A stretch of 64,000 nucleotides of DNA, taken from NCBI RefSeq assembly GCF_000226095.1, contig NC_016474.1, forward strand, positions 1,178,001 to 1,242,000, read 5' to 3'. Position 1 is the first letter of the stretch. Each line of letters starts with the position of its first letter. A program made the translations under genes and the position numbers. Positions 3,486 through 39,022 of this stretch are shown here, one piece after another. This DNA is from Thermothelomyces thermophilus ATCC 42464. Its lineage: Eukaryota; Ascomycota; Sordariomycetes; Sordariales; Chaetomiaceae. The notes under the pieces were generated by a model. It saw nothing but the letters and a program-made list of their open reading frames with translations. It had not been told where the DNA came from and did not search any database.

Positions 3486-6400
3486 TCAGGGCCTCGGGCC
3501 GTTCAACGCCTTAGGAAACCTCCACTTCTGGCCCTTCCTATCAGTCAGATTCACCCCCTTCATGTACTCGACCACCTCGTCCGGCATGCCCGCCGCCTTG
3601 GCCTCGGCAATCCACTCGGCGTCGGGCGTGACCGTGACGGTCCTGCGGAGCTGCTTGGTGAGGTACGGCGCCAGGCCGTGCACGTCGACCGTGTCCTCCG
3701 GGCGGCCGTTGTGGTTTCGGTACTGCACCAGCTGGCCGGACGATTGTTGCGGCGTAGTAGTAGTAGTAGTAGTGGTAGTAGTGGTGGTAGCGCCCGAAGA
3801 GAGCACGGCCGAGAGGATGCCGCCCGCGACGTCCTCGACGGGGACGAACTGGAAGGTGCCCTCGAGCGCCGACATGGACGGGACGGTGGCCATCTGGCGC
3901 GAGTAGTGCAGGATGTTGGACATGACGTCCAGGTGCGGCGCGTTCTCCCCGACGATGGCCGTGGGCCGGTGGATGGTGACGGGGAGCCCCGTCACGGCGC
4001 TGGCGCGCTCCAGGTACAGCTCGCTGGCCCACTTGGAGAGCACGTAGCCCTCCGGGGAGCTGGTGGGCGGGAAGGCGCCGAGAGACTCCTCGTAGAGGTC
4101 GTGGCCGAGCATCGTGGCGATGCCGGCGGTCGAGATGTAGTGCAGGTGGCGGACGTTGCCGTGCTGGAGCGCGAGCTTGACAATGTCCTTGGTCGACTCG
4201 AGGTTGGTGCGGCGGACGCTGCCGTAGGCCTTGAGGAAGGACACGTCGGCGCCGTTGTGGATGACGGCGTGCGATGTTTTGAAGACCTCGGTCGCGGCGG
4301 TGTCGGTCAGGCCCAGTTGAGGCTTTGACAGGTCGCCAGGGTGAATGACCAGCTTCGGGGACGAAACTTGGGCCAGCTTGCTCTGACTACGAACCGCCAG
4401 CGCATGGACCGTCTTGACCTCCGGCAGCCGCACGAGCTGCCGAACAAGTTCAAGTCCGAGGAACCCGGAAGCACCGGTCAGAGCGATGACGAGGCCGCTC
4501 TTGGGCATCGGCGACGCGGGAGCGCGCAGGTGGGACAATGCAGGCTGTAGCTTGATCTCACGGGGCCAGTCGATGCCAGAAGTTGCCGACGCGTTGTTGC
4601 GGTCCTTTCCGTCCAGCAGCGAAGCCATCTGCGCCAGCGTGTTGCGCTGGAAAAGCTGAGTAAGGGGCACATCCAGGCCGTACTGCTTTCTGAGGTCGCC
4701 TTGCACACGGATCAGCAGCAGAGAGTTACCACCGACGAGGAAGAAGTCAGAGTTCGGGCCGAGGGTGTGTGCGTGTACCGACTCCCCCAGGACATTGAGC
4801 CATAGGTCTTTCATCTTGTTCAGGTTCTCGTTGCCGCCGAGGTCGACGGCGGCCGCCGCCCCAACCGGTGTTTCTGTCGCTTTCCCGAGCGCCCTGGTTA
4901 GCGGCAATTTAGCTACCGCCTTCCTGTCAACCTTGCCATGGTGGGTGAGCGGCAGGGAAGTAACGGCCACAATCACAGCCGGCCGCATGTAGTCCGGTAC
5001 GCGAAGCTCCGCAACTACCTTGTCAAGGAAGGTCTCTTGCTCGGCGGGAGTGGCGTAGCGCGCCCGTCCTTCCTCGCTCAGAACAACGTGCGCCGCCAGG
5101 AAGTCAGCGCTCGAGTTATTCGGCTCCGGCTTGCGCACGTGAACGACCGCGTCGCTGACGAGCCCCTTGGCTGTCGACAGGAGCTGTGCCTCAATGTCCA
5201 GCATGTCGATGCGCAGACCACGAAGCTTGACCTGGGTGTCGCCATTGATCCGCGCCTGGAGGATGAACTGGCCGTCAGATTCACGAAGGTAGCCGCTGTC
5301 GCCGCTGTGATGGACCAGCTTCCAGCCTTGCTTCACAAATTCTGCCGGGGCGAGATCGTCCTCGGGGAATCTCTCGGCAGTCAGCTCAGGGTTACCAACA
5401 TAGCCATCGGCAATTCCAGCTCCGGCAAAGAGCAGCTGGCCAGGGATACCGGCAGGAACCGGATGGCCTTGTGCGTCAACAACCCGGGCGGTGTAGTTGG
5501 GCATGACCCGACCGATAGGAACGGGCATGTCGCTAGCAGAAAAGCTGCGATACAAGACCTCGTAGGCGTTGGGTATCATGGTTTCAGTTGGGCCGTAGAT
5601 GTTGATGGCGCGCAAGTCAGGCTTGTCCAGAAGCCTGAGATGGTTGATGAGGTTCTGACTGTACGGCTCGCCCCCAGAGCAATGCCATGTCCACGCAGAC
5701 GACCGCAGCGCAGCCAGGTCACCGCCCTGGAGCCAAGCAACGGACTCGCTCGGGACTGCGAATGTAAAAGTGACCTTCTTCGAGACGATCAGGTCGGTCA
5801 ACGCCCGTGGATCCCTGCGAGCTTCTGGCCCAGCAACGACCACTGTACCCTTGGTGGCAAGGGCGATAATGGCACCCCACCAAGAGACATCGAAGCTGAG
5901 AGGAGTCTGTTGAAGAACCGTCTGTGGCGACATGGGCCAACGATGGAGGAAACTGCGAGCCGCGTTCACCACAACGCGATGGGCAATCGAAATACCCTGA
6001 AACGGCGTGGTATCATTAATTAGCAGACGCGGTGCGGTGTCATCACAGCTAATTAATGGCCAACATACCTTGGGAACACCAGTCGACCCACTGGTGTAGA
6101 TGATCATAGCTTCATCACTTGGCTTGTGGTTCGAAACGAAAGAGGTTGCGGCGAGGCGGTTGAACGGCAGCGTGGACACGTTGATCACCTTGACTGTGTC
6201 GTCGAGAGCCAACTGCGAAACGAGCGGCACGGTGGGGTCATGGACCAGGACAGCAGCCAGCTTTGCCTCTTTTGCGACGTCGGCAAGACGGCGCACACCC
6301 TGGGTGGTTTCCAGGGGGACGTATGTTTTCTCCGCCCGCCAGACACCGAGCATGGAGCAGACCCAGTCAACGTCAGGCTCTTGGAACACTCCAATCCTGG

Positions 6401-9400
6401 AACGAGCGGGTAGTCCTAGGTTTACTAGGCTTTGGCCGATGGCAACGGATCTCAACTTGAGGTCAGACCAAGAAAGCGAGTTTCCTTGGCTATCTCGTAG
6501 AGCAACCGCACCGGGCTGCTGCGCTGCAGTCTCGTCTACCTCGGTCAAGATGGTCGGGTGCTGAAGGTCAAGAAATTCGCCTATCAAGGAATCAGCGTCG
6601 ATGATCCGAGCCTCCTAACCAAAATCGACAAAACTCACCCTTGCCAAGTTGCAAAGCCCTGTTCACTTCGCCGGCGTCGAACATCTGAGGCTGCCCTGCA
6701 GCCAGTTCGGTGTCCTTAGTGAATGCATCCAAGAGAGTCGTGTAACATCCCATGATGGTCTGCGACTCCTCCGGTGTGTAGAGGGCCTCCTGGGTGAGTA
6801 GCTTCAACGAGGCTTCTCCGGTGGGGGTATCAATCATCTCAATCATGACATCGTACGGCGTCTTGCTGACGATGTATCGCTTGCCTTCCAGATGACCTTT
6901 TCCGAACGGCAGCTTCTCCGTGACATAGCGATAGTCGATGAAGGCCTGGAAGAGGGGGCTGTGGGTCGAACTTCGTTGCACCCCGACCTTCTCCATGATG
7001 ACATCGAAGGGCACCGCCGAGTTGGCCAAGCCATGCAGGACCTTGTTCTTGGTCGCCTTGACCAACGAGGAGAATGGCAGGTTGAGATCAGTTGGCAACC
7101 TCAGGGGAATCAGGTTGAGGAAGTTTCCAATGCTGTCTGTCGCGCCGACATCAGCGCGGTTCGCGTCGGCGATACCGATGCAAATGTCATCGGTGGCAGC
7201 CAGACGAGCCAGGGTGATTTGCAGAATCGTCGTGTAGATGTGGAAAGGCGTGACCTTGAGCTTGCGGCAGGCCGACTTGACTTGACGGGCAACCGAGGCC
7301 GACACTCTCGTCTCAATACTCCGGTTTTCGTACGTTGTCAGGTTAGGGCGCGGCCGAGAGGTATTCGGAGACACGTTGAGAATGGGGAGCGGATCTGGAA
7401 GTCTCGCAAACTCGTTCGACCAGTAGGCGATCAGAGAATCCCAATTGCCCTTGCTGAGTTGTTCAACTTGATACTTGGAAAAGTCCGAGTACTGCATCCG
7501 CGGAGGCGAGAGTTTTTGGCCCGCGTAGATCTTGATCATGTCCGCGACAAAGACGACAAAACTCGACGAGTCCATGTTGATGTGGTGGTATCCGACGAGC
7601 AAATGATGGTGTGTTCGCGAAGTCGAGACCAACATGGCCCTCATGGTCTCGCCCTTGCTCAGGTCATAGACGGTATTGTGCACCTCCTGGAAGAGCCGAT
7701 CGATGTCGGAGACGGAAGCACTCACGGTCTCCAAACGCAAGGGGCTTTCCTTCAAAATGGCTTGCATCGGCTGATCGTCTTCGTGGAAAAAGCACGTCCT
7801 CAGCGCCTCGTGGCGGGCTCCAACCATCTCCACTGCGCGGCTCAGGGCCCGTACGTCGATTTCCGACTGGATCTCGACATCGCAAGAGATATTGAACGCG
7901 GTTGGGTCCTGGACAATTTGCGTCATGACCCAGAACCGAGATTGACCAAAGGACATCGGCAGCACCTTCTCAATGGCGGGGCTCTGGGAGATTGTCAGTG
8001 ATGGCGACAGTGAGACTGGTTGCGAAGAGGGCGGCGCAACCAGACTAGTACTCTCGGTTGGGTCTGCAACAGAAGAGGCAGGTGATGACGACCCAGTCGG
8101 CGTCGGTGCCTCGGTTTCACTTGCGCTAGACGGCACGGAAGGAAGGGTGGGACTGCCATTCGGCTTGGTGGTGGTGGCCACCGGCGGCGCGGCAGGGGGA
8201 ACTGAAGCGGCGACAGGCTTGGGATGCTCCTCCTTTGCCTTTGGTGCCGTAAGGCTCTCTTCCGTGATGGCGTCCTTGCCGTTCGGGTCCAGGTTAGGCA
8301 CGTATTCGGCAGGAAGGTTTTCGACAGCATAGTCAACGAGCCCCTGGACGGGTGTGTCGGAGAGAATCTTCAGGACTGGAATGTCGACTCCAAGTTCACT
8401 ACGCATCCACGTGCGCAGCTCAACCGCAAGAAGGGAGTCGAGGCCGAGGGCGCTCGTGCCCTGCTGGAGGAGGGCGTCGGGGTTGTTGACAAGTTCGTCG
8501 CTGAGACTCAAGATGTTCTGAAGCTTGTTCAAAACGGCAACTGGGAGGTGGTTATACATGGTTAGTGTTTGGGGGGGGTCTCTCCAAATGCGCTGGCTGA
8601 CTTGACACTCACCTCGAAGAACCCTGCCGACGTCGCCCGGCGATCTTGCTCTCTTCAGGAGGTCCTCCAGCGACTCCACTTGAGCTGAGCCTTCCGAGGA
8701 GGCGCCCGAGGCTCCGTCAGTGTTGAGTAGCAGGTGCGAGAATCTGGCGTTGTCGACCCAGGTGGGTTGGAATTTGCCCTTCTTGGGGTGCACGGTCAGG
8801 CCCGTGATGAGCTCCTCGGGCTCTCGAGAATCGACCCGGCCCATCAAAATGCCGTTGGTGAATGTTGCTAGGAAGTCTCTCCCGGACATCTTGCGGTATC
8901 CGTGGCTGACCAGGAGGTTCATGACGTTCTCGGAGACATCGCGAGCCATAAGTCCGACACCTGCAATAGGGCCGATGTCGATGACACTTGCATTGAGACC
9001 ACGAGCGCGGCGCTGCGATGCCAAGCCGAGCATGTAGATGTTGGCCGTGTCGTAATTGCTCTGGCCGGCCCGCCCCAGGACGATGGAGATGGACGAGAAG
9101 CCGATGAAAAAGTCGAGCGGGTCATCGTAGAAGATCTGGTCAAGGATGCGTGTGCCTTCGACCTTGGGTCTCAGCACCTTGTTCATGTCATCGAAAGTCA
9201 TGTCTTCGAAAGACATGTCGTTCAGAACGTTGGCGCCGTTTGCCACACCGGCGATTGGCGGCCAAGAAGACCGCAGGTCTGCGATAAGGCTCCGGACATC
9301 GTTCTCATCGGTAATGTCGCTATTTTTCAAAATGATTAATTTAATCGGGACCGCTCTGTTGATAGGGAAACTCTAATTAGGCAGTGGTGGACTTACTTTT

Positions 9401-12400
9401 TAACGGCCTTGATCTGGACACCCTTAGCTGCGTATTCGGCGATCAGATGCGGGTCGACACTAGGTCTCCGGCTGGTGAGGACGATGTATCGGGCGCCGAG
9501 GCTGACCATGTACTCGGCCAACGGCAGTCCGAGGCCACCGGCTCCAGCGAGGCCGAACAAGACATAAGTACGGTCTCCCCTGAAGATTGGAAGGGCGTCT
9601 GATGGCTTCACCGAGACCGAGACCGAGCTGCTGGCCGTCCAGTCGATCACGGAAGCGGCGCTTGACTGAGGATCGGCGACGTATGCATCGGCAGACACCG
9701 CGCCGCTCTTGGAGAGGTTTGTCGGTGCCAAGTGCACTGCTTCCTGGCAGAGCGCAGCGAGGGCAGTGGTGCTGAAGTTGCGAGCTTGGAAGGAACTGGC
9801 CTTCTCAAACCTCGCAGCATCGGGTAAGAGGGCTTTGATTTGGGCCACAAAGTTGCCGCGCCAAGAGGATGGCTTGGTGAAGTCGATGACGGAGGCGATG
9901 CGCGGTGGCAAGGCACGACGGATTGTGCGGCTGCTGGCATGAGCGCTGACGGAGACGCCCGGATAGGCGCGCTTGCTTGCCGGGCTTGTCGTCACCGAGG
10001 TAACGCTAAGCCTCTTCTCTCCGGCCAACTTGGCCACGGACTCGGCCAGGTCATCGTCGGGATCGACAAGGAGGGTAGTTCCGTCCACGGTGGCGGCCTC
10101 GCTGCAGATCAGTGATGCGAGGAGATGGGAGGTGATGGCCCGCAGACGGGAGGGAGCCTCATCCAAGGGATAGTTGTACGGGACCACGGACGAAGCCGGG
10201 ACTTCGACGATGGAGGCGATGCTCTTGGCTAGCGCAACCACGGGCGCATCGGTGGCAGTATCGAGACCGATGAAGGGATACAGAGCCTGCGATGATGACG
10301 GCCTCAGCGGGACTGTGGCCGAATACAGAACGCGCACTCGCGTGACTTCCTCCCCATCGGTGCGGCGAGCCTCGGGTGCGAGAACGCGGATGAGAGCGCG
10401 ATTCTGGCTGCCGTTATTATCATCATGGGATTCGACCACTTCGACAACCTCCTTGGCAGGGTCTGCTTCGGCGACGATCTGGCGACGAGACGAGTTGTAG
10501 CGGTCGTTAGTGGCCTGGTGGGGTACGATTCTAGGCACCCACTTGCGGCCCTCTGCATCGACCTCGAATTCCGGTTCTTTCACCCAAACAAAGTCGGCAC
10601 TCTCGCGGGCCAACCGCCCCAGAATCTGCAACCGGAGCAATTCGTCAACCAACATGTGGGCATCGAGCCGCGCGTCGACAGCGAAGTCGATAAACTGCAC
10701 ATTGATTTTGGCATGGGCCTGCTCGACCATCATTGCACGACCGAGACCCAGCGACATGATGGCGTGCGGGTTATCGCGCCGCGCGCCGCGCGTTGCCCAA
10801 AGCACCGTTTGAGCAGTGGTCCAGAGCTTCTTCAATCCGTCGTGCGCTTCGGGAGTGTATCTCGTGAACACGGGTTCGTCAAGATCTGCGAGATACAGGA
10901 CGGTTGGACGAGCGGACAAGTCCAGACTCGCCAGGTCTTGCGCCGCGGGCACCACGGTGATGCGCTCCGAGTGCAGCTCGAGGAGGCGCCTCATCTTCTC
11001 GGCAAGCCGGACCGAGACGAGCGACCGGCCGGAGACAATGACTAGCTCGTCGATGTGCGACAAGGCGGAGGCATCGTTCTTGGAGCTCGGCTCGAGAAGG
11101 AGATCGATGTGCTCGTTCGTCGCCCGCGACACCAAGACGCTGTATGGACGGGGCAGGACATCCAGCTCTGGCGTGCTAGTCTCGATGCCGCTGAACCCAG
11201 CCTGGACCAGAGCGGCGTGCCATTCGGCGGCGGACAAACGCTTTGTCGAGCCCCGTCCACGGTTCTTGGCTGGCCACCAGCCTTCCAAACCACCCATCAT
11301 GGCGGGCAGGCGAACAGTCGCGCCCGAAGTGGCTTCGAGAAGTGCCAGATACCCACCGGGCTTCAGCAACTGGTGTAGGTTGCTCAGGTAGGCCTCGGGG
11401 TCTTGGGGCCAGGTGTGTAGCGCTAACACACCAATAACCAGGTCGTACGAGTGTGCTTGGAAGCCCTGCTCCGCGAGATCCGCGCCAAGCTCGAGAACTT
11501 GGAAAGACATGCGCCCTTGGTAATCCGGGAAGAGACTCTTGGCCGCCTCAACAGCATCTGGCGAGACGTCCGTGAACGTGTAATGGCTGAATGCGTGCGA
11601 CGCCCTCTTCAGGATCTTCTTGGTCGCGTTCCCAGACCGACCACCCACTTCGAGGATACGCACATGAGGGTTGACGTGCGTTATCTGGCCGACTACTTCT
11701 GCCAAGAAGCCGGTGTACTCGCCTAGCCCAAGCGACTCCTCGTACCAGCGGTCCAGCAGGCCATCCTTGGTCATGTGTGTTAGGATGTCGCCCTGGCCTC
11801 GTACAGCATCCGCCAAGTGCTCGCCCACATTCCGCAGGAGCTGCACGTCGACTCGGTCGCCGAACGCATCCATCAGCGGTTCCAGAGTCTCAGCCGTGTC
11901 ACGGAGCCATTCTTTCTTGAAGAAGCGCTGCCTACCGCCGCGCGCAAGTGCGACCGATTGCCGCGCGAACTCGAGCAGTTTCTTATGGTGCCATCGAGCC
12001 CCTGCCTCCTCGTCTGGCCGGATGCTCTCGGCGAGGTTGCGGAGGTAAAAGTGGGCCACCCGCTCCAGCAACCAGCCGAGTTCGTTATCCTCCTGGCTGG
12101 CTCTGTTGTCGCCAGCGGCGATCGCGCCATCGGGAGAAGCAGTGTTCCAAGTGTTGACATAGAACATCTGCGTATCCTGGGACTCGGTGGCAGGGGCAAA
12201 GGGAATGAGACGGATGTTTTCCACCTGGATCAAGCCTGTGCGGCCATCACCAGAGAATATGTCCACGTCGCCGGAGAGATCGATCTTGCCGCTAAGGCTC
12301 TCGGCCGCGTTGATGGCCGCATCAAAGCTGAGGTAATCGTCAGAGTTGGCACGGCACCGGGCAGCGTCGATTCGGATGCTCTTGATCGACACGGGCACGT

Positions 12401-15400
12401 GAAGTGACCAGATGCGGCCATCGCCCGGGTACGAATACGCCAGGAACATTGCCTGAAAAGCCGCGTCAAGGTATCCGGGGTGAACTAGCAGGTCCTTCTC
12501 AGATGGATGCATGCTAGCGGCGTCCACCTTCGAGATGCGCCCACGACCGAAATCGGACTTTCGCGTCATCGAGTGCAGAGCTCGGAAAGCGCCCGAGTAC
12601 CCGTATCCCAGCTGCTTGAGTTCTGAGTAGAACAGCGAGTCGTCGACCTCGGTCATGGCTGCGGGGCCCGCCTCCTGGGCCGGTAGTGACTCCAGAGGCT
12701 CAGCGGCACCATCACCGGCAACTGTAACTTGCATCCGGCCTGACGCGTTCAGAGCGGCATCGGTCGACTCGGCTGTGGCCGTCACAGAACGCGCGAAGAA
12801 GCTTGTCTCGAACACGCGGTGGCCGTCGATCTCTGTGGCCTTGTCGATGTGCAATGAGAAGACCAGCTCAATACCAGCCTTGTCGCTCTCGAACGCGATC
12901 GCCTTGCCGATGTCAAGGTCCTTCAACTCGATCTTGGCAAGTGGCCCTGCGGCTGCTGCCTTCGCGAGCTGCTTGGCCGCCTCTGCTGCCAGCGCCACGT
13001 AGCCGGCGGCAGGGAAGACGGTTTGCCCCTGCAGCTGATGGCCGCTGATCCAGGGCAGATTGGAAAGTCGGAGCACGGTATGCCAGCTCAGATCCGTATC
13101 GTTCGAATCCGGGCTGAGTATTCCAAGCAGCGGATGGCCAGGCTCGGTTCGCAGACGAAGGGCTCGTGACCGGCGAGACTCGTTCCAGAATACCCGCTTG
13201 TTGTCCCAGGGGTAGGTAGGGAGATCCTTGATAATCGACGGTCTGGCACCCGACAGCCCGTGAGCGGTGATGTGGTACTTGTCCAGGTCCAACGCGCCGT
13301 CAGCCGCGTTGGCCCAGATCTGGCCGATCGCGTTGGCGAAGGCTTCACTGCTGTCGCTGTTTCTTGACAGGCAGCTGATATAAGCCGGGACTGACTTGGT
13401 AACGGCCTTCATCGTGTCCAACGCCGGCCCCTTCAGGGTGCCGTGCGGGCCAACCTCGATGGCGATGGTGTACTGTTCCTCAGCACAGGCGCTCTCCACG
13501 GCGGTGGAGAAGAGCACCGTCTGAGCCATGTTGCGTGCCCAGTACACACTGTCGAGTTCTTCATTCGCGTGACCGGTGAGGACGGCGCCGTCGTGCACCG
13601 ACGAGTACCACTTGCAGCCATCCCTAGGTTTGTTGGCCGTGACTCCCGCTTTCCGAAGAGACGCAACATAGGGGTCGCTGCAAGGCCGCATGTGGTGGGA
13701 GTGATATGCCTTGTCGACCCGGAGGGCGCGAGCGAATTTACTCTCATCCTCAAATACCTCCTTGGCCTCCTCGATCGCATCAGCGTCGCCCGAGAGAGTG
13801 ACGCTGGTTGGCGAGTTGCATGCCGCAATGCCGATGCGTCCTTCGAACCGCGGCAACGAGACAAAGTCCTCGGCATCCTCGGGACTGGTTCCCACAGCCA
13901 GCATGGCACCACGCTGCCCGTCCGGACCGCCGGCGAGTTTCGTGTGAACGCCGCGGTAGTACGCGGTCACAATGGCATCGCGGGCCGAGAGCACCCCGGC
14001 TGCGTACGCCGCGCCGATCTCTCCGGAGCTGTGGCCCACAACCGCCGAGAACTTGACATTGGCGGCGGTCAGAAGGTCCACGAGCAGGATTTGCAGTGCC
14101 GTGCACAACGGCTGGGCGTACTCTGCCAGGTGCAGTTTGGACTTGGAGCCCTCCGCCACGAGCTCTTCCCTCAGTGACCACGAGGGCCGGTCGGCCGCCG
14201 GGAGCGTCGCGAGAGCCAGCTCAAGCTCCTGAATGCGGGCCTGGGCGAACGGAGAGGCCTCGAGAAGCTGCTTGCCCATACCCGGCCACTGCGCTCCCTG
14301 GCCCGTGAAGATGCCCAGGATCTTCATGGGCCGGTTCGGCGGGCGGACGACTGCCTGGGTCTCCCACTCGGGCGACCCAACCGAGTCAAGCACGCGCTTT
14401 CTGAGACCCTCTACGTCCCTAGCCACATAGGCCACCCGGTACGGGAACGTGGAGCGACGGGAGTTGAGGGTGTAGGCCAGGTCACGGGCGCTGATGTTGG
14501 GTGACTGCCCGAGGAAGTCGGCGGTATTCCTCAGCGCCTGGCTCAGCGAGGCCTTGCTTGCTGCCGAGAAGGTGAAGGTCCACACGCGAGCAACGATGCC
14601 CATCTCGGCACGTGGTAGAGCCGTCGGGGGCTCGTACCTCTCAAGGATGGCGTGAGCGTTCGTACCGCCGAAGCCGAAGCTGTTGACACTCGCGCGCTTA
14701 GGCGCTCCCTCTGGCCACTCGCGCGCTTTGACGGGTACCTCGAGGCCCTTGTAAAACGGTTCGATGCGGGGGTTAAGCGTCTTGAACAGCAGGTTGGGAG
14801 GAATAAGACGGTTCTGCAACGCTAAAGAGGCCTTCATCAGGCCCGCGATGCCCGCGGTGCCTTCAGTATGGCCGATGATCGTCTTGACCGACCCGACGTA
14901 CAACTTCTCCCCGGGTCCGAGACGGCTGCCGATGGCCCGGTGGATTGCCTCGGCCTCGAGAGGATCTCCCGTGGCCGTTCCGGTGCCGTGCGCCTCGAAG
15001 TACTGCGGCCTGTCAGAAGGCGAGCTCAAGTCCAGGCCGGCGCGACGGTATGTGTCTTCGATCAGCGCCACTTGCGCATCCGGGCTGGGAACCGTGATGC
15101 CGCCTGTACGGCCGTCTTGGTTGACGCCCGTCTCACGGATTATGCACTCGATCGGATCGCCATCCGCAATAGCATCGCTGAGCTTCTTCAGGACCACGGC
15201 GGCGACGCCGTCCCCACGCCCGTATCCGTCGGCCTCAGCGTCCCACATGTGGGAGCGGCCACGGGGCGAGAGCATGTGGAAGGTGCTCTCTGAGATGTAG
15301 GGCTCAGGGCCGAGGAGGAGGTTTGTTCCCGCAGCGACAGCCATCCGCGAATGACCAGCGCGGAGCTGTTGTACGCATTGGTGAACGGCGACGAGAGACG

Positions 15401-16022
15401 ACGAGCACGCCGTGTCAATCGTCATACTCGGTCCGTGCCAGTCGAAGAAATAGGAGATACGGTTCGACACGATAGAACGGGCTGTTCCGGTCGCGTGATA
15501 CTATTCAGAGCAAGAGTCAGCATCGGCAGGCACATGTCACTTGGGGAAAGGGAGGCAATGGCTTGTCAGACGTACAGTCGGCATCATGTCCAGCTCTCTC
15601 CCTTGGATGCTGCTGTATTCCTCTCCCATCAACCCGACGTAGACAGCGGTGTCGCTGCCCCTGAGGTCACCGATCCTCTGTCCGGCGGCTTCGAGAGCCT
15701 CGTAGACGGTCTCCATCAGCAGCCTCTGCTGGGGGTCGATTGCCGCGGCCTCATTGGCCGAGATGTTGAAGAAGTCGGCATCCCACGCGCGGACGTCCTC
15801 ATCGAGCACGTACGAGTGCAGGACGTTGCTGTGACCGCTGGTGTCACCGACGGGATTGTAGAAGCCGTGGGGATCAAACCGCGAGCGAGGAATCTCAGAC
15901 AGGACGTCCCGAGGCTTCGACAAGAGATCCCAGAGCTTTGATGGTGAGGATGCGCTGCCTGGGAATCGGCAGCCGGAGCCGATGATGGCAATTGGCTCGC
16001 TCTTTGCCTGAGCAGAAGACAT
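3486..16022 (-). CDS. Hybrid PKS-NRPS synthetase with reductive release domain (ucsA/ccsA type), 6 exons
   Basis: The cluster backbone enzyme. The model joins 16022-15576, 15500-9397, 9319-8613, 8540-6639, 6580-6069 and 5996-3486 (complement), giving 4,060 residues, the usual size for fungal PKS-NRPSs. Domains in order, with approximate residues: KS 9-440 (active site DTACSSSL near 181, then EAHGTGT and GHTEG); AT about 540-870 (GHSSGE near 639); DH about 930-1230 ([10 protein letters not shown] near 969); C-methyltransferase near 1432 ([10 protein letters not shown], a divergent SAM loop); KR from about 2135; ACP (GLDSL near 2453); a Ser/Pro/Thr-rich linker; C (HHINMDS near 2737); A ([15 protein letters not shown]); T (GGNSLL near 3645); R from about 3730 (TGASGFLG, then YVLSK). 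There is no ER domain. The intact YxxxK in R suggests reductive release of an aldehyde rather than Dieckmann cyclisation. Expected product: an N-acyl amino aldehyde. The family call is firm; the product is inferred. Confidence 0.93.
3754..3790 (-). repeat. GTA/GTG triplet microsatellite coding poly-Thr
   Basis: A near-perfect run of triplets inside the R domain of the synthetase, translated as twelve threonines near residue 3966. It is flanked by an Ala/Gln/Ser-rich stretch, so it probably forms a flexible surface loop. Confidence 0.9.
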
Positions 16023-16952
16023 TTTTGGTTTTTTTTCGTTGCTGTGAGAGAAGAATATTCTGCTCGTTCTGTTGGTGGCAAAGGGGAAGGAAGAGAAGGA
16101 TGAAGGGGAGGCAACTTCAAGTGGTGCCAGTCACATCAACTCCAAAGTTGACTCCTAACGATACAAGACATGGACTACAACTAATACCGGTACGTAGGGC
16201 CGTATATAGGTCTCGAACTCGAGTATCCCGCAAACCCATGCCCTTTTGTTAATTACCCCCTTCACTTGCACAGGCGAGGGTATTCCCACGGCTCCTGTAT
16301 CGGCTCCGTTCACCGTTGAAAGGTGACGGTGCCGAAGATTGGTGCCATCGATGCAATACCATGAGCGACTCCTCGATCGGACTCAGCCGATGGGAAAACG
16401 AGGCACCGGCGTGGGAGCTTCGGCGGAGTGGATCACCATCGGAGCATGGTGCCGGCGTGCTTTGCTTGGAACGGCAAGTGGGTCACCCGAACAGGAACCG
16501 GGTCTTGGCCATCGGCTCGGGGACCCTCTCTCTCTCCCCAGCCACGCGGGTCGATGGAACCTTAATCGCTTAACGTTATGGCGCTTACACAGTACGTTAC
16601 CGGTCGCTTCCTCCCTCGATGGATTCGACCTGTACGGAGTACCTCACCGAAAGTCACCGAAACAAGGATCTGCATGCAAACTGTCAACGCCAAACCCGTC
16701 TTGACCTTTCGCAGCATTTCGCGTCCTTTCGTGGTAATTTTTTGCTTCATTTTTTGGGGGGGTCTTTTTTCTTTTGCACCAAGAGGAAACACACTGATTG
16801 ACCTTCGTGTTGGGAGCAGACTCGGGATGACAAATAGTACTTAGATAGGTACCTTGGTTGAATCGCCTCATTAGCCGGGGGCTGAATCCATCAAGAAGTT
16901 CTATTCTGATAATAATTCGAATCCTGATAATTGACACGAGATAGTCCTGAAA
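16023..16952. promoter_or_regulatory. Divergent promoter: PKS-NRPS / methyltransferase
   Basis: A 0.93 kb region between two start codons that point away from each other. It contains CGGCTCCG at 16301-16308, a word also found in two other divergent promoters of the cluster, and other CGG triplets of the kind Zn2Cys6 regulators bind. Function is inferred from position only. Confidence 0.4.
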
Positions 16953-17934
16953 ATGGTGATCCAAGGTGATTTGACCCCTCGTATCCCGAAGCCTGCGACA
17001 GACAGGGTCACGATGAGAACTAACGACCGGGTGAAACAGCCAAGGCCGGCGACTGGGATAGGTTCGCAGAAACGTACAAGCAAATCACGGAGAGCACCAA
17101 CATCAAGCCCGTCGGTGCCATCCTTGACCGCCTCAATGCTCTGTGGCCGTTCAAGGATGCGACCGGGTTCCTGGACAACGGCTGCGGGCCGGGAACCATC
17201 ATGGCCAGGCTGATCGACGTGTACGGTACCAGCCTTCCCCCCTCGTGCTCCCTGCTATGCACCGACTACTCCCCCGCCATGATCAAGCAGGTGGAAGCGG
17301 CCCGGGAGAAGCAGGAGCCGGCTTCCCTCTGGGCCAGGGTCGATGCCCGGGTTCTAGATGCACTCGACCTGAGGGGCATCGGCGACAACTCGCTCAGTCA
17401 TGTTGCCGCTGGACTGGTCAGTAATACCGCCCATGGGCAAAAGGCATGTTTTCAAGCACCCACCCTGCCGACGCTAACGTTACTAAGCTCTACAACTTGA
17501 CTACGGACCCCCACAAGTGCCTGACCGAGTGCAGACGGGTGCTCCAACCGAACGGGGTCTTGGCCGCGTCGGCATGGGAGGGGAACGAGTGGCTCGAGAT
17601 GATGCAGGTCCTCCCGATCATCAAACCGGAGCTCAAGAGCGCCGTGAAGGCGAAGTGGACCAGCGTCTCGGCTATGAAGGCCGACTTGGCGGCCGCGGGC
17701 TTCCGCGACGTGGAGGTCGAGTCGGTCCCGGTCCAGGTCCCCTTTGAGTCGCACGACTTGTTCGTCGACACCCTGCTGACCTACCAACCGCGCATGACGG
17801 CTTTGCTGAGGGACTTTACCGAGCAGGAAAAGGCCACCTTGAGGAAGCTCCTCATCGAAGAGATGAAAGTCTACTGTCCAACCGAGCCGGGGGCGTTGAA
17901 CGGGGTGGTGCTCGTGGCAACGGGTTGTAAATAG
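16953..17934 (+). CDS. Class I SAM-dependent methyltransferase, 3 exons
   Basis: Predicted small-molecule methyltransferase with a Rossmann SAM-binding fold. The model joins 16953-16965, 17040-17416 and 17488-17934, giving 278 residues. The glycine loop LDNGCGPGT is intact, followed by an acidic CTDYSP strand end and the post-motif RVLQPNGVLAASAWE typical of the family. The 13-nt first exon is inferred: the frame has no ATG after the stop just upstream, and splicing at 16966-17039 gives the start MVIQAKAGDWDRF, like relatives that begin with a short tail and a DWDRFA-type motif. It is divergent from the synthetase. The UCS1025A cluster also carries a methyltransferase, as I recall. The substrate cannot be told from the sequence. 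Confidence 0.8.
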
Positions 17935-19172
17935 GGGGAGTGGCCTGACATGCAGTTGGCTGCACTTAGAGATCGAAACATAAAACATAAACCGCAATAT
18001 CCGGTCCCAGTCGGTCTGTTCAAGCTGTAGAGACGCCTCATGGATGGATATTTGAGAGCAATGCTAAACTACCTACTCTTCTTGGCGGTCAATGAGCTCC
18101 TTTTCGAGTAATTAGGAGACGTTCGAAAAACTGAGCATGATGATCACTGAAAAGCGCATTCACCATATTAGTCGGACCCCACATTCAGAACACCCCCTAG
18201 GTTATCCCAAATAATTATTTACTCCATCCGTGACTGTCAGGGTAATATGTAAGAATCTACCTGCATTCAAATAATCAACATCACAATAGTCAAAAGTGAG
18301 TAAAACTCCAGGAATATACTCCGCCTATCATGTGAACAGTTTAACAAAGATGCTAATTTAGGAACTAACCAGATTCTTAAATGAACGGCATGTAATACTA
18401 TAATGGCGAGTTAGATAATTTAAAATGCGAATATAAGGTAGATCATTTAATATACTGTCTCTAGCTATATCTTGATGTAAATTCGATAAATATGTGCTGT
18501 TGGCTATGGGGTTGAAATATGTGAGGTCGAACGAGTATTATGTATGGGAAATGGTGTTAGAATAGGGGGTGCTCGGAATATCATAGGGGGAGAGCTTTGG
18601 TAGTGTTTAGGGACTCGTGATGAGCGAAAGGGGGAAAGCCGAAAGAGGTGAAACGCATCATTCCGTCCTACCAAGATGCGGCGCGGCAAATTCTCGGGAC
18701 CGAGGAGTACCCCCCCACGCGATGGGGCAAAGATTCTCGCCTCATAGTTAGAGGTTCGAAACTTGTCAAAGCAGGGTGGCGGGTGCGATTTCCCACTCGG
18801 TCGCTAATTACTTGGACTATGGGATCTGACGCGCCGAAGCCAACCCCTGAGTTCGGTCGCCTTCCGGTCGCCTTCATGTCTAGGCACACCACCCCGATCT
18901 ATACCGAGGCTAGTCTAAGTCTGACAGCGAGCACATTCGGGGCCTTTTACCGACTTCCACGCGGATGTCGTTGCCCACTACAACACGATGGAAAAGGATG
19001 CTTTACCATGTGATGGTTGGGGTGAACCCCCCTACGAGATTTAAACTCGAGCTACTAAACCCTCTGAGCGCAGCAGCCGTGGAGGCTCAAGGGCTAATTA
19101 AATAGTCTTCAGTGCTGTCAAGTGTAACGTACCTTTCACAAACAACCTAACCAAGACTTCCAAGTCAACATC
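17935..19172. other. AT-rich intergenic region with a tRNA-like fragment
   Basis: About 1.2 kb without a recognisable gene. The part to about 18560 is AT-rich. At about 18722-18770 a stretch resembles part of a tRNA: an anticodon-like CTCATAG loop followed by GAGGTTCGAAAC, close to the Pol III B box. It is too short and unpaired to be a working tRNA and may be a tRNA-derived SINE relic. The last 150 bases should be the promoter of the oxygenase gene. Confidence 0.4.
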
Positions 19173-20357
19173 ATGCCTGTCCCGCTCCTTGACGCATCCC
19201 AAGTTCGGGCTGGCCCTGAGGCGCGAAAGAGCTTCCTCAGGGACCTGATCCAGAGTTTCCAGGACTATGGATTCGTCCGGCTCACGAACCATGGCATTCC
19301 TCCGGCGAGGGTGAAGGAAATGTTTGAGCTGGTACGTTTAACGGTGGCGTGGAATGCCGATAATTACATTTCGTGTATTTCAGCCCCGTGCTAACCACTC
19401 TGACAACCAGGCGGGTGAACTGTTCAGTCTCGACACCGAAACTAAACTCGGATTCGCCAACATTGCCGATGGCAGCCCCCAGCGCGGGTATAGCGCTATT
19501 GGCGTTGAGAAGACCGCTTCCTTGCACGGAAAGCTGATCGGCCGTAACGTGGATGAGAGGCTGACAGATGCTAGAGTACGTCCCTAAAACACTTGTTTTA
19601 TTCTCAGTGAACATTCACCTCGCCGGCCGGCCAGAACGTCTTGGGATATTCCGCTGACATATCGGTGCCATAGGAGCACTTTGACTGCGGCTCCCCGCTT
19701 GATGAGGAGTACAGGAACCGGTGGCCCCAGTCCGAATCTCTTGGCTATTTCCGGAAGGAAATGGAAGCGTTCTACTTCGAGATGGAACAGGTAACTGCCG
19801 AGCTGCTCAGTTGGCTGGAAGAGGGACTGGGCGTGCCCCGGGGCACGTTCAACAATCTCGTCACGCACGAGAAGAACGCCAGCGAGCTCCGTCTGAACCA
19901 CTACCCCCCCGTCCCGGCCTCGCAGCTCCTCAGCGGCCAGGTCTCGCGCATCTGGCCTCACTTCGACCTGGGCGTCATCACCCTGCTCTTCACCTCCGGG
20001 GTGGGCGGGCTCGAAGTGGAGGACAGGAAGGCGCCCGGACCGCAGACCTTCATCCCGGTCGAGGCCGAGACGCAGGACGAGCTCATCGTGAACATCAGCG
20101 AGACCCTCCAGCGCTGGACCGACGACAAGCTCCCGGCGGGCCTGCACCGCGTCTCGACTCCGAAGGAGCTCGAGGAGAGGATCAAGACCGACAGCAGCGT
20201 CGAGATCCCGCGGCGCTACAGCATCGCGTATCTGTGCAAGGCTGACCGCCACGCCTCCGTGGGCACCCTCCCGGCCTTCCAGACCGAGGAGAAGCCTCAC
20301 TACCAGGAGATGACGGCGGCCGAGTATCACCGTCAGCGGCTCTTGACGGCCTACTAA
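19173..20357 (+). CDS. Fe(II)/2-oxoglutarate-dependent dioxygenase (ucsF-like), 3 exons
   Basis: Predicted non-heme iron oxygenase of the isopenicillin N synthase-like family. The model joins 19173-19331, 19411-19575 and 19674-20357, with introns of 79 and 98 nt, giving 335 residues. The N-terminal DIOX_N region has FQDYGFVRLTNHGIP. The iron ligands are His and Asp of WPHFDLG (near residue 207) and the distal His of GLHRV. The 2-oxoglutarate Arg and Ser lie in RRYSIAY. It is followed, in convergent orientation, by a pyrroline-5-carboxylate reductase. In UCS1025A and echinocandin pathways this pairing oxidises a branched amino acid to a methylated pyrroline carboxylate, which the reductase turns into methylproline. 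The same role is inferred here. An alternative is late-stage oxidation of the polyketide. Confidence 0.87.
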
Positions 20358-22561: not shown

Positions 22562-23868
22562 ATGGCTCGGATAAACCGCCAGACGGCTTACCAAAAAGCC
22601 GACGAGATCGAGTTCTCCACTTCTTCCGCAGATCCGCTCGCGGCATGGAGGATCTCGGGAATCAAGGGTCCCGTCTGGGAGCAGTGGTACTTTGATAGCG
22701 TCGCGGACGACGGGAAGTCGAGCGTCGTTCTCACGATCGCACGGGATGCGAGCTACGCACTACTCGGGCGCGGCACGCTGCGCGTCGAGCTCGACGTGAC
22801 CTTCGACGACGGCTCGCACTACAACAACGTGGACTGGATAAGCGAGGCCATCGTCGAGGACAGGAGCGGCCCCAAGAACACCGGCACCGTCGACGGCTCG
22901 TGGACGGCGCCCAACAAGGCGTACCGATACCAGATCGCCGCCGACGGCAGCGCCGCCAAGGTCGAGATCGCCACGCCCGAGGTCCAGGGTCACTTCACCC
23001 TGGCGGCCTTGTCTCCACCCCTCTACCCCGAGGGTGAGACACAGGAGGAGCTCAAGGCGTCCGGCAAGACGGCCACGACGGAGCTGCTGCCCAAGATCCA
23101 CCTGGTCCAGGTCATGCCCACCGCGACGTTCGAGGCGGATCTGGTGGTCAGAGACCGCCTGGTGCGATTCCGCGGCATCGGCGGCCACATGCACGCGTGG
23201 GCGGCCGGGTCGTGGTTCGACACGACGCTCGGCTGGCGCGTGACGCGCGGGGTGGCCGGCCCGTACAGCGTCACGCTGATGGAGTACACCGACATGGACG
23301 GCGTCGTGCACTCGAGCGGCTTCGTCGCCAGGGACGGCAAGAAGCTCTTCGGCGCCAAGGAGGTGTACGCGACGCCGCGGTCGTCCTCGGCCCTGCAGCG
23401 CGCGCTGCGCTACACGGGCGCCGGCAAGGACGAGAGGAAGCCCAAGCACACGGTCCGGTGGACGCCGACGTACAACACCGGCTTCGCCGGCCGGTTCGGG
23501 GACTCGAGCACCGGCGCCATCCTCAGATTTGCCGCCGCCGAGGGCGAGGAGTACCAGTTCGAGCTCGTCCACCGCCGCAAGGCCTTCGAGTATCTGTTCG
23601 GGAGCAGTGACACCGGTCTGACCGCCTTCCTGGGCGAGATCAAGGGAGGGAAGGTTGGAGAGGAGGTATACAGAGGTGTGCAGTTCTCCGACGTCTGCGT
23701 ATTACCCCGTGAGTAATTATCCCAGTCCGGCTCTGCTCTCCTCCGCCGAATGTCTACTAATTAACATTCTGGTTTGCAGAGGGTATCACCAAGGTTTATT
23801 TCTTCATCTGCATGCTGATCGCCGTGCTCACATTCGGTTACATCAATATCCTAGAGACAAACACCTAA
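22562..23868 (+). CDS. Diels-Alderase, Fsa2/CcsF/UcsH family (decalin-forming), 2 exons with membrane tail
   Basis: Predicted pericyclase with the two-domain lipocalin-like fold of fungal Diels-Alderases such as Fsa2, CghA, MycB, CcsF and UcsH. These enzymes fold a linear polyene into a decalin (or a cytochalasan ring). The model joins 22562-23708 and 23780-23868 and gives 411 residues. Recognisable features are the N-terminal IKGPVWEQWYFDS, the central RFRGIGGHMHAWAAGSWFD signature, and the C-terminal lipocalin part with HTVRWTPTYNTGF and FELVHRRKAFEYLF. The second exon uses a clear GTGAGT donor and TTTGCAG acceptor and adds a hydrophobic helix (VYFFICMLIAVLTFGY), so the protein may be membrane-tethered. 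Without splicing the frame stops at once after the donor. The start is the first ATG in the conserved frame. The presence of this gene sets the compound class. Confidence 0.9.
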
Positions 23869-24909: not shown

Positions 24910-26496
24910 ATGGAGCGAATCCCAGATACCATGACTGCTGTTGTGTTTGACGGGCCACACAACATCTCCGTCCAACAACGCCCAACACCAAAAAGTACCC
25001 CAACCATTTCTGACTCGATCTCGATCATCTTTCTACTCCTGGGCTAGACTACTGACATCCCGTAGTCCAGGATGACGGAGACATCATTGTCAAGGTGCAA
25101 GCCGCTGGGCTTTGTGGTTCGTACGTATACCATCACTACCGTACACTACCGTACCTTACTTTACATTAATAACCATCTCAATCCTGAGGAATGTCAGCAC
25201 TTTCTAATCCGCCCACAGGGATCTTCACCTTCTTCGTGGCCTAGAGAAGACCAAAACAACGGGCTTTATCATGGGCCACGAGTTTTCGGGAACGGTAGTG
25301 GCAGCAGGAAGTGGTGTCAAGACTGTGAGCGTTGGCGACAAGATCGTCTCACCGTTCACGGTATCATGGTGAGTTGACAAATGAGATTGCCTAATAATAC
25401 CTGAGTTCTCCAAGCTCGCTGACTTCCTTGACAAATCAGCGGAGCGTGTTTCTACTGCAAAAACGGCTTCTCGTCCCGGTGCGTGCATTGCTTGGTCTTC
25501 GGCACCGAAGGGCTGGCGGGCGCCCAAGCCCAGTTCGTTCGCGTGCCGCGGGCGGACGGCACCGTGATGAAGGCGCCCCCCGAAATCAGCGACGACGCCC
25601 TCGTCCTCATGGCCGACGTCTTCCCCACCGGATTCTTCGGCGCCAAAAACGCGTTCGCCGGGCTGCCGCGGACCCAGCGCCCCTCCGACGCGGTAGCCGT
25701 CGTCATCGGCTGCGGACCGGTGGGACTCAGCGCCATCGTCTCGGCGCTCGAGTACAAGCCCAGGCACCTCTTTGCCATCGACGCCGTGGAGAGCCGCCTC
25801 CGGGTGGCCAAGTATCTGGGGGCGGAGCCTCTCAATGTCGCGGACGGTCAGGAGAACATTGTGAAGAGGATCGGGGAGCTAACGGAGGGGAGGGGGGCCG
25901 ACGTCGTCGTGGAGGCGGTCGGCCTCAGTCCTGCTCTGAGAACGGCCTACGACATTGTCCGGCCATTTGGAAGCATTAGCAGTATCGGAGTCCACAATTC
26001 ATCGGTACGCGAGAAGCGGGTCGAAGAGAGCGACTCCTCGTAATATGGATTTGATGACTGACATGCGGTTACTTATATAATTAATAGATGCCATTTACGG
26101 CAACGGAAGGATACGAGTAAGTGTTAATTAACACCACCACACCACCACGGGATCTCTTCCACCTGACGAGTATAATTACTGACACTTGCTCCAGCAAAAA
26201 CGTGAAGATCCAGATGGGCAGGTGCCCAGTCCGGTCAATCTTCCCAGAGGCGCTGCCGGTGTTGGCCAAGGCTCAACACCGTTTTGGGTAAGCCAACTTC
26301 GATGTTGCCTCCCTTAGGTACACATGATCTCCACGTAATTAGTTCTCACACCACTTCTAGGTTCATGTTTGAAAAACTCGTACCCCTGTCAGAGGCGGTG
26401 GAAAGCTATGCACTCTTTAGCGAGATGCAGGTTCAGAAAGTAATCTTCAAGCCGTGGCAGCGCTTCGAGAGGGAGAATCGTAATACCCGTTTGTGA
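24910..26496 (+). CDS. Zinc-type medium-chain alcohol dehydrogenase/reductase (ucsJ-like), 7 exons
   Basis: Predicted NAD(P)-dependent oxidoreductase of the MDR superfamily. The model joins 24910-24994, 25066-25120, 25219-25368, 25440-26004, 26088-26116, 26195-26287 and 26361-26496 and gives 370 residues. All six introns have GT/AG ends and keep frame. The catalytic zinc motif begins AAGLCGSDLH, followed by MGHEFSG. The structural zinc site is the Cys-rich segment SCGACFYCKNGFSSRCVHC. The Rossmann loop is VIGCGPVGL, and the cofactor strand ends at FAIDAVESR. A zinc dehydrogenase is a different branch from the zinc-free trans-enoyl reductase at 37.6 kb. In the UCS1025A cluster an MDR enzyme (UcsJ) is thought to set stereochemistry by a late reduction. 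The same is possible here. Confidence 0.88.
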
Positions 26497-33913: not shown

Positions 33914-35963
33914 ATGTCACCCGCAGACCCACCTAACGGCACGCCGCGGGAGACTGCCCCGGCATCCGACGACCGGGAAGCCATGTCAGAGGGGGCGGGT
34001 ACTGGTACTGGGTCAGCAGCGGAGAGCAGCGAGGCCGCCGCCAAGAAGGGCGACGAGGCGGGCGAAGGCGACGCTACTCCTCCCAAGACGAGCCACTCGC
34101 TGCGCTTCTGGGGTATCGTGGCCTCCCTGGCGTTCACGGCCCTGTGCTCTTCCATCGAGGGTACCATCATCACCAGCGCCCTGCCCACCATCAGCGCCGA
34201 GCTCGGCGGCGACAGCAGCTTCATCTGGGTCCCCAATGGCTACTTCCTCGCCACCATGGTGATGCTGCCGCTCATGGCCCAGGCCGCCAACCTGTTTGGC
34301 CGCCGCTGGCTGACTTTGATCTCGGTTGCCATGTTCACTCTGGGCAGCGGCATCTGCGGCGGTGCCAACTCGCCCGCCATGCTGATTGGCGGCCGTGTCG
34401 TGTAAGTCGAAAAAGTCTTTCTTGGCATTCACTTACCAATTCAGGTAACCATGTCGCTAACTGACTGGTCTCTTCTTGTTCTTCTTAGTCAGGGTCTCGG
34501 CGGTGGTGGTATCGCCTTGATGATCAACATTGTCCTCACCGACTTGGTCCCCCTTCGTGAGCGAGGCAAGTATATGGCCATCGTCCAGATGGTCTCCGCC
34601 GTCGGTGCTGCCCTCGGACCATTCCTCGGCGGTCTTTTGACCGAGCGCAGCACCTGGCGTTGGGTCTTCTACATCAACCTGCCCATTGGTGGAAGTACGT
34701 CTGCCTCCTCCTTCCCGGGTGCCCCAGTCAGTGTGGGAGAGCCAGACGGACTGACATGGATTGTGACAGCTTCGCTCGTTGCCTTGTTCTTCTTCCTGCG
34801 CGTCGCCACCCCGCCGGGAGGGACCTGGGTTGAGAAGCTCAAGCGCATCGACTTCATCGGCAATGCCATCTTCATCGCTGCCACCGTTTCCGTTCTCATC
34901 GGCGTCACCTGGGGTGGCGCCGTCTACCCGTGGAAATCTGCCAACGTCATCGTGCCCCTCGTCCTCGGCTTCGTCGGGATAGGCCTCTTCCTGGCTTACG
35001 AGTGGACTCTCGCCAAGAACCCCTCGCTGCCTCGAGGCGCTATCGTAGAGCGCACAGCCGCTACCGTCCTCGCCGTCACGTTCCTGACCACCCTCTGTAC
35101 CTACTGGGCCTTCTACTTCATGCCCATCTACTTCCAGGGCGTGAAGGCCAAGTCGGCCTTCTGGTCCGGCGTCGACGCCCTGCCGCTCTTCGCCGGCCTC
35201 TTCCCCTTTGCCATCATCGGCGGTATTCTCCTCTCCAAGTTCGGCCGCTACAAGCCGTTGCATCTCGTCGGCATGGCCATCGTCACCGTCTCGTTCGGTC
35301 TGTTCAGCATTCTCGACCGGAACTCGAGCACCGCCGCCTGGGCTTGCTTCCAGCTTCTCTGCGCCATCGGTTCCGGCCTGATGATTGCCATCCTCCTGCC
35401 GGCCATGCAGGCGCCGCTTGACGAGAGTCTCGTCGCCGCCTCTACCGGAGTCTGGACCTTCGTCCGGGCTTTCTCGACCGTCTGGGGCGTGACTATTCCC
35501 GCGGCTATCTTCGACAACGAGGTGGCCAAGAAGGCGGCCGCCTCGCTGACCGACCAGAGCCTGGTTGGATACCTCACCGGCGGCAAGGCGTACCAATTCG
35601 CCACGCAGGAATTCCTCGACAGCATCCGGGACCCGGCCTCTCGCTCCGAGGTTATCGACATCTTCACCTCGGTAAGTTGCTTTTCCGGGACCCCTTTTTC
35701 TGCCCCACGCATTTGTGCTGACAGTATGACAGTCGATCAAGATTGTCTGGTACGTGGGCACTGCCTTTGCCGGGCTTGGCTGGCTGTTGGTCTGGCTCGA
35801 GAAGGAGGTGACTCTGCGGTCCAAGCTGAACACAAAGTTCGGAATCGAGGAAAAGAAGAAGCAGGAGGAGGATGAGGAGAAGGCCAAGAACGAGGGGGAG
35901 AACAAGGATGGAGAAGAGAGCAAGGCGGCGGATGGAGCCAAGAGGGCCGAGCTGAGCGCATGA
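33914..35963 (+). CDS. MFS exporter (DHA14-type), 4 exons
   Basis: Predicted 14-helix drug/H+ antiporter in the plasma membrane, the likely exporter or self-protection pump of the cluster. The model joins 33914-34401, 34489-34694, 34770-35671 and 35733-35963 and gives 608 residues. The N-terminal about 65 residues are polar. Helix 1 carries SSIEGTIITSALPT, the family's D1-like motif. NLFGRRW is motif A between helices 2 and 3, and WRWVFYINLPIGG precedes helix 6. The C-terminal tail is a highly charged Glu/Lys segment. The second intron (75 nt) is a multiple of three without a stop, so it could be missed. Its removal gives the normal INLPIGG-TSLVALFF junction. It lies head to head with the hydrolase gene. 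Confidence 0.92.
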
Positions 35964-36549: not shown

Positions 36550-36915
36550 AGTTCAGCCCCCCTGAATTTGGGCCACCCCTCCATTTGGGCCACTATTACA
36601 GCTTTAACCCTTAGGTTCCGATGTATAGGAAGTCATCATTCAGAATACGAGGACAATCAAAGTAAAAAGGAGATAAAAAAGCAGTAAATCATGATCTGTA
36701 CCTTATTTGCATCGTATTCAAATTTTCTAGCTCTCCGATAATTATACTTGATTGAACAATGATATCTACTGTACTTTTCGATCCTATATTAGAAGTTCAT
36801 CTTAACCATATTACCTTTGGATGTTTCTTGTGGGGGTTGAAGAGTGCGGGTTTGTCTTGATTTGTACTGTACATACGGGATTGAGTCGCCCAGATGGGGG
36901 TGGGCCCAAATCTAA
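36550..36915. mobile_element. Pogo-like MITE relic
   Basis: About 366 bp bounded by imperfect inverted repeats. The left end starts AGTTCAGCCCCCCTG after a TA dinucleotide and runs on through GAATTTGGGCCACC. The right end, reversed, reads GATTTGGGCCCACC and then CATCTGGGCGAC. The AGTC-like start next to TA and the small non-coding body fit a non-autonomous Tc1/mariner-pogo (Fot1-like) element. The right terminus is worn, so its exact end is uncertain. Confidence 0.6.
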
Positions 36916-37629: not shown

Positions 37630-39022
37630 ATGGGCAGCCTCCAAGACCTCCCGCCCCTCCCGACGACCCAGACAGCCGTCATCACGACGGCCGAGGGCCG
37701 GCACGCCGTCGCGCGCGACCGAGCCGTGCCGGCGTGCGGGCCCACCTCGGTCCTGGTCCGCGTGCGCGCCGTGGCGCTCAACCCGACCGACCACAAGACG
37801 CCGGCGCGGGTCAAGACGGGCGGGCTGACGGCCGGGTGCGACTTCGCGGGCGAGGTGGTCGCGGTCGGGGCGCGCGCCAACGACGAGCCCGGCGACGCGG
37901 CCGCCTGCGCCGGCATCCCCCGCCGCTGGGCGCCCGGCGACCGCGTCCTCGGCGTCGTCTACGGCAGCAACCCCGGCGCGCCCGCCTGGGGCGCCTTCGC
38001 CGAGTACGTCGAGGCCGACCCGGTCATGCTCTGCCGCCTGCCGGACGGCTGGGACTGGGAGACGGCGGCGTCGGTCGGCGGTAGCGTGCACGGGTCCGTC
38101 GCCCTCTGCCTGTTCGGCGAGGGCAAGATGGGCCTGGACATGGGCGGGTTGAAGAAGAAGGCTGCGCTGCTGCTGCAGGGACATGGTTCTGCCGCCGCGG
38201 ATGGTGCCGCTGCTGCCCCTCCGAGTGTTCTCCGGCCTGCGCAGGGTGGTGGTGGTGGTTATGGCGGAGGGTCGAGCAGCAGCAGCGCCCAGCTGAGCAA
38301 GAAAGATCTCCAGAAGGTGGTGCTCGTGTACGGGGGAAGCACTGCCTGCGGCACCATGGCGCTGCAAATTCTCCGGCTGTAAGCCTACCCTACCCTACCC
38401 TACCCTCGTCCTCATTCCCAGCTTCTTCGGCGCCGCGGCTGTGCCCGTCGACTGACTGACGGTCCGTACACACAGGGCTGGATATATCCCCATCGCAACC
38501 TGCTCGGCGCGAAACGCGGGCTTGGTGACGGCGTACGGAGCGGCGGCAACCTTCGACTACAACCTCGAGACGTGCGCGGACGAGATCAAGGAGTACACCA
38601 AGTCGGCGCTGTGGTACGCGCTCGACTGCATCGGGACGGCCCAGTCGGCGGCGCTGTGCTACGCCGCCCTGGGCCGCGCGGGCGGCCGGTACGTGGCCCT
38701 CGAGAAGTACCCGGACAGCGTGGCGGCGCTGCGCAAGGTCGTCAAGCCCACCTGGGTCATGGGCCCCGTCATGTTCGGCCGCGACCTCCAGCTCGGCGAG
38801 GGCTACAGCCAGCCGGCGGATCCGTCGGCCCGCGCCTTTGCGCGCATCTGGTATCCCCTGGCAGAGGCGCTCCTGGGCTCGGGCGCGCTCAAGAATCACC
38901 CAGTGAAGGTGGTGGCCCCGGAGGGACGAGAGGAATGGCCCGAGGCCGTCATACGCGGCCTAGGGGGCCTGCGGGATGGGAAAGTCAGCGCGCAGAAGCT
39001 TACGGTCACGATAGCGGCCTAG
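37630..39022 (+). CDS. Trans-acting enoyl reductase (LovC/CcsC/UcsL type), 2 exons
   Basis: Predicted zinc-free MDR enoyl reductase that docks on a highly reducing PKS and supplies the missing ER activity. The model joins 37630-38378 and 38476-39022 and gives 431 residues. The N-terminal catalytic domain shows VALNPTDHKTP and CDFAGEVVAVG. The NADPH loop is VYGGSTACGTM. The C-terminal half has ALDCIGTAQSA and GGRYVALEKYP, family hallmarks. The synthetase here has no ER, so this gene completes it. Unusually, about 50 extra residues rich in Ala, Gly and Ser sit just before the NADPH loop (about residues 180-235), which makes the protein longer than the roughly 360-380 residues typical of the family. 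The gene is the right-most clear cluster member. Confidence 0.92.
38384..38406 (+). repeat. CCCTA tandem repeat in intron
   Basis: About four and a half CCTAC units at the start of the enoyl reductase intron. It resembles telomere-like sequence but is too short and in the wrong context to mean a telomere. Confidence 0.8.

Follow-up and report, generated by a model that had tools for sequence, protein, structure and literature searches.

A biosynthetic gene cluster of Thermothelomyces thermophilus was analyzed in a stretch of 64,000 nucleotides (the window; contig 3, positions 1178001-1242000), and its 11 genes, all within positions 3486-39022 of the window, very likely encode an apparently complete pyrrolizidinone pathway of the UCS1025A type, a rare kind of antibiotic in which a methylproline and a decalin are fused. 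Genome-wide searches covered seven contigs with 38,744,216 bases. An esterase gene on contig 5 matched PDB 4g4g, a glucuronoyl methylesterase of this species, with 910 bits and 399 of 400 aligned residues identical. Gene models were derived with a simple splice-aware script rather than from RNA, which excludes stops by construction; genes were assigned to classes by Pfam matches, and closest relatives were sought among the sequences of the PDB. The preliminary description of this DNA had listed the same set, and each of the 11 genes was located with a Pfam match to the class claimed for it, the one to the putative oxidoreductase related to short-chain dehydrogenases/reductases (SDR) being weak.

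The UcsF-type dioxygenase and its partner reductase

The reading is carried mainly by a gene for a 2-oxoglutarate (2OG) dioxygenase (19173-20357, + strand; three exons, 335 aa). Its best PDB match was 9ktp_A, which bears the entry name "2-oxoglutarate-dependent dioxygenase ucsF", with 552 bits over residues 1-335 (E-value 3.7e-165) and 242 of 335 residues identical (72%) over the full length, and it is through this name that the likeness to the UCS1025A (ucs) cluster was recognized. Twenty-eight distinct PDB sequences matched at E-values of 1e-8 or less, the runner-up scoring 118 bits. When UcsF was in turn searched against the whole genome, the window gene came out on top, its three exons being 62-74% identical (71% overall), and the next place reached 31%. 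Both proteins contain the stretches IWPHFD, LHRV, and RYSIAY, which we take to be involved in binding iron and the cosubstrate. At the sequence level, this match directly supports the presence of a UCS1025A pathway gene, namely a UcsF-type 2OG oxygenase with the predicted role of making the methylproline precursor. Since 28% of its residues differ, the gene is distinct from the one behind the PDB entry. The E-value of the match, together with long open frames at the cluster (as many as 2035 aa) that are independent of the splice script, excludes chance as the source of the gene matches. A further 2OG oxygenase, 31% identical to UcsF, was observed at C3:1292460-1293347 (- strand), approximately 94 kb from that of the cluster; its match crosses one stop in an intron-free six-frame reading.

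The adjoining gene encodes a pyrroline-5-carboxylate (P5C) reductase (21968-20891, - strand; exons 21968-21872 and 21774-20891), in which Pfam detected the P5CR_dimer domain (99 bits) and a nucleotide-binding domain. Two places for such reductases exist in the genome, and the copy at C3:1431634-1431939 was taken as the housekeeping enzyme because of its higher family score (136 bits, compared to 102 bits for the cluster copy). As the two copies are only 37% identical over 298 aligned columns, the cluster copy appears to be diverged and is probably a dedicated enzyme. In the published ucs scheme, UcsF reportedly acts on L-isoleucine, and UcsG is said to reduce the product to 3-methylproline. 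It had been proposed that this pair of genes points to a methylproline-containing pyrrolizidinone and should have relatives in ucs-type clusters; both suggestions gain support from the UcsF match, although the second is true of the oxygenase, the reductase being characterized as an additional genome copy.

The synthetase and the remaining cluster proteins

The largest gene encodes a hybrid of polyketide synthase and nonribosomal peptide synthetase (PKS-NRPS) of 4060 aa (16022-3486, - strand), with six exons (16022-15576, 15500-9397, 9319-8613, 8540-6639, 6580-6069, and 5996-3486). According to Pfam, the gene model, alignment to a second synthetase on contig 2 (see below), and a comparison of C-methyltransferase (C-MeT) domains, the domain order is KS-AT-DH-(degenerate C-MeT)-KR-ACP-C-A-T-R. 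An enoyl reductase (ER) domain was not found by Pfam in the four long frames of the synthetase, and an R-type domain (NAD_binding_4) was. A trans-acting ER of the LovC type (37630-39022, + strand; 431 aa) is homologous to LovC (PDB 3b6z, 191 bits) and matched ADH_N, its ADH_zinc_N match falling under the Pfam cut-off; the combination of an ER-less synthetase bearing an R domain with a trans-ER was thus described correctly. The R domain (LTGASGFLG...YISTAG...YVLSK) has retained its NAD-binding motif along with the serine/threonine and YxxxK residues, as in the contig-2 synthetase; with these catalytic residues in place, reductive release of an aldehyde would be expected.

The S-adenosylmethionine (SAM) motif of the C-MeT domain reads ILEVGGRSG, whereas LovB, PsoF, and 7dmb have ILEIGAGTG (EIGAGTGG). 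PsoA, the sole PKS-NRPS among the five PDB alignments compared, also has a degenerate motif (ILQVGPSSPG), and such degeneration is therefore not unique to the window cluster. Comparison of C-MeT motifs in four other PKS stretches of the genome gave one weak homologue only, and the single pattern match, IDVGRGDG, did not lie in a homologue. The C-MeT domain of the synthetase is predicted to be inactive, which would leave an unmethylated chain, as UCS1025A needs: its skeleton consists of an unmethylated C14 chain and a C6 methylproline. The degenerate motif thus lends some support to UCS1025A over C-methylated relatives. In the C domain, the window synthetase has HHINMDS and the contig-2 synthetase HHINMDG. 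The A-domain codes, read by eye from motifs at the usual code positions, were D V W F H S I I P K in the window and D L W G A T C V G K in the contig-2 protein.

The putative Diels-Alderase (22562-23716, + strand; 384 aa) matched DA_N (93 bits) and DA_C (66 bits; cut-off 27 each). It belongs to the same lipocalin-like family as Fsa2, CghA, and PDB 7dmo from decalin tetramate pathways, but these scored only 30-46 bits against it in phmmer searches. An alpha/beta hydrolase (33054-31400, - strand) was recognized as FrsA-like by its gene model, Abhydrolase_6 and FrsA-like matches, and the motif GQSLGG, and its translation may in fact begin in exon 2; like the Diels-Alderase, it is present and assigned to family level. 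The cytochrome P450 (28604-30349, + strand; 539 aa; p450 143 bits) has the heme motif FGKGTRMCVG and found general P450 matches only in the PDB, the best being P450 3A4/3A7 with a top score of 101 bits. A zinc-type medium-chain dehydrogenase (MDR; 24910-26496, + strand; 370 aa, seven exons) matched ADH_N (89 bits) and ADH_zinc_N (60 bits). The SDR-like protein, an extended SDR or NmrA-like oxidoreductase (28041-26928, - strand; 347 aa; Epimerase 35 bits, cut-off 20.9), lacks YxxxK in a motif check, and a close relative was not found in the PDB. The set is completed by a stand-alone SAM methyltransferase (16953-18030, + strand; Methyltransf_11 49 bits), whose best PDB match was 5jgj, a "UbiE/COQ5 family methyltransferase, putative" (67 bits), and by a major facilitator superfamily (MFS) transporter (33914-35963, + strand; four exons; MFS_1 84 bits on frame 34406-35872). 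The preliminary description considered all motifs intact, which goes too far for the C-MeT and C-domain motifs and for the SDR-like protein.

Relation to known systems, proposed route, and alternatives

The ucs cluster comprises a PKS-NRPS, trans-ER, hydrolase, 2OG oxygenase, P5C reductase, Diels-Alderase, MDR, oxidoreductase, P450, and transporter, and the gene kinds of the window agree with this scheme. Li et al. (2018, JACS, as cited in reviews) described the cluster in Acremonium sp. KY4917, from which UCS1025A is reported as a trans-decalin pyrrolizidinone (PMC9055775). The same source places the hosts in different families, Hypocreaceae for Acremonium and Chaetomiaceae for M. thermophila, and a survey of 884 clusters assigned UcsA to a small clade that holds only three hybrids (PMC7421883). 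In the literature surveyed, which was available in part and had the 2016 and 2018 JACS papers outside its scope, no report of the window cluster in T. thermophilus was found. The 2018 abstract on UCS1025A may mention mining of a thermophilic fungus; if this were the same species, the cluster would already be known.

Two places for Diels-Alderases were detected in the genome (both of the two candidates scored), one in the window and the other on contig 2, where a PKS-NRPS of 4120 aa and a trans-ER flank the gene (5427715-5444241). The accessions of MycA, MycB, and MycC of the myceliothermophin (myc) pathway are given as consecutive (XP_003662442-444; PMC6974552), and their genes are therefore expected to be neighbors, which fits contig 2. 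In the window, the three corresponding genes are separated by others, and an adjacent mycA-mycB-mycC arrangement is absent. The contig-2 set is the probable mycABC. It shares the PKS-NRPS, Diels-Alderase, and trans-ER kinds with the window, and the catalytic residues of the two R domains agree, but its C-MeT motif is intact. Identities between the two sets were 39% for the synthetase, 24% for the Diels-Alderase, and 32% for the trans-ER, so that the window proteins show no close grouping with the myc-like set. Genes for a 2OG oxygenase, P5C reductase, or hydrolase were not called on contig 2 between 5414001 and 5454000, where the script called three genes and overlooked the Diels-Alderase itself, and the genome search gave no P5CR_dimer place on this contig. 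The contig-2 set is located less than 30 kb from the contig end and is flanked by AT-rich DNA.

Following the published ucs scheme, with only the name ucsF coming from database comparison, these enzyme roles are proposed. The UcsF-type dioxygenase would oxidize L-isoleucine to a product that cyclizes to methyl-pyrroline-5-carboxylate, which the neighboring P5C reductase would convert to 3-methylproline. The PKS half and the trans-ER would build a linear polyene that probably lacks C-methyl groups. Coupling of this chain with methylproline would fall to the C-A-T part, and release as an aldehyde to the R domain. Knoevenagel closure, probably with help from the hydrolase-like protein, would then give the pyrrolizidinone, and the lipocalin-like enzyme would set the decalin through an intramolecular Diels-Alder reaction. 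Finally, the P450, MDR, and SDR-like enzymes may oxidize the ring methyl to a carboxylate from which the lactone closes, yielding UCS1025A or a close congener for export by the MFS protein. From its sequence, the cluster probably makes one of these compounds.

Several points weigh against this assignment. Only 1 of the 11 proteins matched a ucs-named protein; the hydrolase, the MDR, the MFS transporter, and most of the synthetase lay outside the PDB search, and a ucs-named chain was absent among the PDB matches listed for the Diels-Alderase, P5C reductase, SDR-like protein, methyltransferase, C-MeT, ER, and P450. No obvious step of the known UCS1025A pathway calls for the stand-alone methyltransferase, and with serine in place of the last glycine of HHINMDG, condensation is not assured. 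In addition, the parts of the literature that were surveyed gave no pyrrolizidinone from T. thermophilus, and the gene set could be silent.

A possible but doubtful reading is an undescribed pyrrolizidinone congener other than UCS1025A, with the methyltransferase (16953-18030) tailoring the product and the altered C motif and degenerate C-MeT tuning the synthetase. It is unlikely that the product belongs to the CJ-16,264 or pyrrolizilactone type, in which a methylproline pyrrolizidinone with the same ring logic has a cis-decalin. Compounds of this type have a longer or C-methylated chain, and the same gene kinds would be expected for them, but the degenerate C-MeT motif argues against C-methylation, and the 72% identity to UcsF also speaks against this type; neither of these two features bears on the cis or trans configuration. 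CJ16264 and pyrrolizilactone themselves are described as cis-decalin compounds from unidentified or uncharacterized fungi (PMC9055775).

Still less probable is that the genes are leftovers of a ucs-type cluster that no longer functions. The degenerate C-MeT, the altered C-domain motif, and the presence nearby of DNA mutated by repeat-induced point mutation (RIP) would agree with decay; on the other side stand 11 models with their domains in place, which, even though the script bars stops, are accompanied by long frames that are open without it, and a RIP signature is absent from the PKS-NRPS region (2-kb steps over 2001-18000 gave composite indices from -0.75 to -0.37).

A cytochalasan product is very improbable. 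A PKS-NRPS, trans-ER, hydrolase, and Diels-Alderase also form the cytochalasan core of the ccs, pyi, and chaetoglobosin clusters; all four kinds are present in the window, and the R domain looks reductive. Cytochalasans are built from ordinary amino acids, no cytochalasan cluster is known to carry methylproline genes, and neither a UcsF-type dioxygenase nor a second P5C reductase is needed there; it is because of the very strong relation to UcsF that this product was judged unlikely. Decalin tetramate pathways differ in another respect, as they release the product by Dieckmann closure, whereas the R domain of the window looks reductive. That the window is the myceliothermophin cluster already characterized from T. 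thermophilus was rejected with near certainty, for although the species is probably the same and the three gene kinds recur, the second Diels-Alderase set fits mycABC in its arrangement and shares only 24-39% identity with the window proteins.

Surroundings of the cluster and significance

Left of the cluster, a subtilase-like gene was found at 1618-2824 (+ strand; Peptidase_S8 43 bits on 2051-2824). On the right, the region 39903-41874 (- strand) encodes a protein without a Pfam match that is predicted to be helical and to have a hydrophobic hairpin, and which weakly resembles alpha-xenorhabdolysin subunit A (NCBIfam, 41 bits, cut-off 125). A second MFS pump (45206-47213, - strand) and a possible fragment of a zinc-cluster regulator (48913-50646, - strand; CDRCRARLIEC; no Pfam match) follow, and these two may belong to the cluster. 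AT-rich blocks begin approximately 15 kb to the right of the cluster (54001-64000, and C3:1252001-1260000 past the window), with a GC content of 0.30-0.42, TpA/ApT ratios of 1.4-1.8, and a strong RIP signature; the RIP composite index at approximately 54-64 kb was 0.81 to 1.32.

UCS1025A is described as a strong telomerase inhibitor that acts chiefly on Gram-positive bacteria (PMC9055775). A ucs-type synthetase is rarely seen, and the window would provide a second gene set, in the well-assembled genome of a probable thermophile, with a possibly heat-stable set of enzymes that could be compared directly with UcsA, UcsF, UcsG, and UcsH. If the product is an undescribed congener, one fungus would form decalins by Diels-Alder reactions in two separate pathways, of which one draws on leucine and the other on a home-made methylproline. 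Two Diels-Alder pathways in one strain may allow the choice of amino acid and of ring type to be compared.

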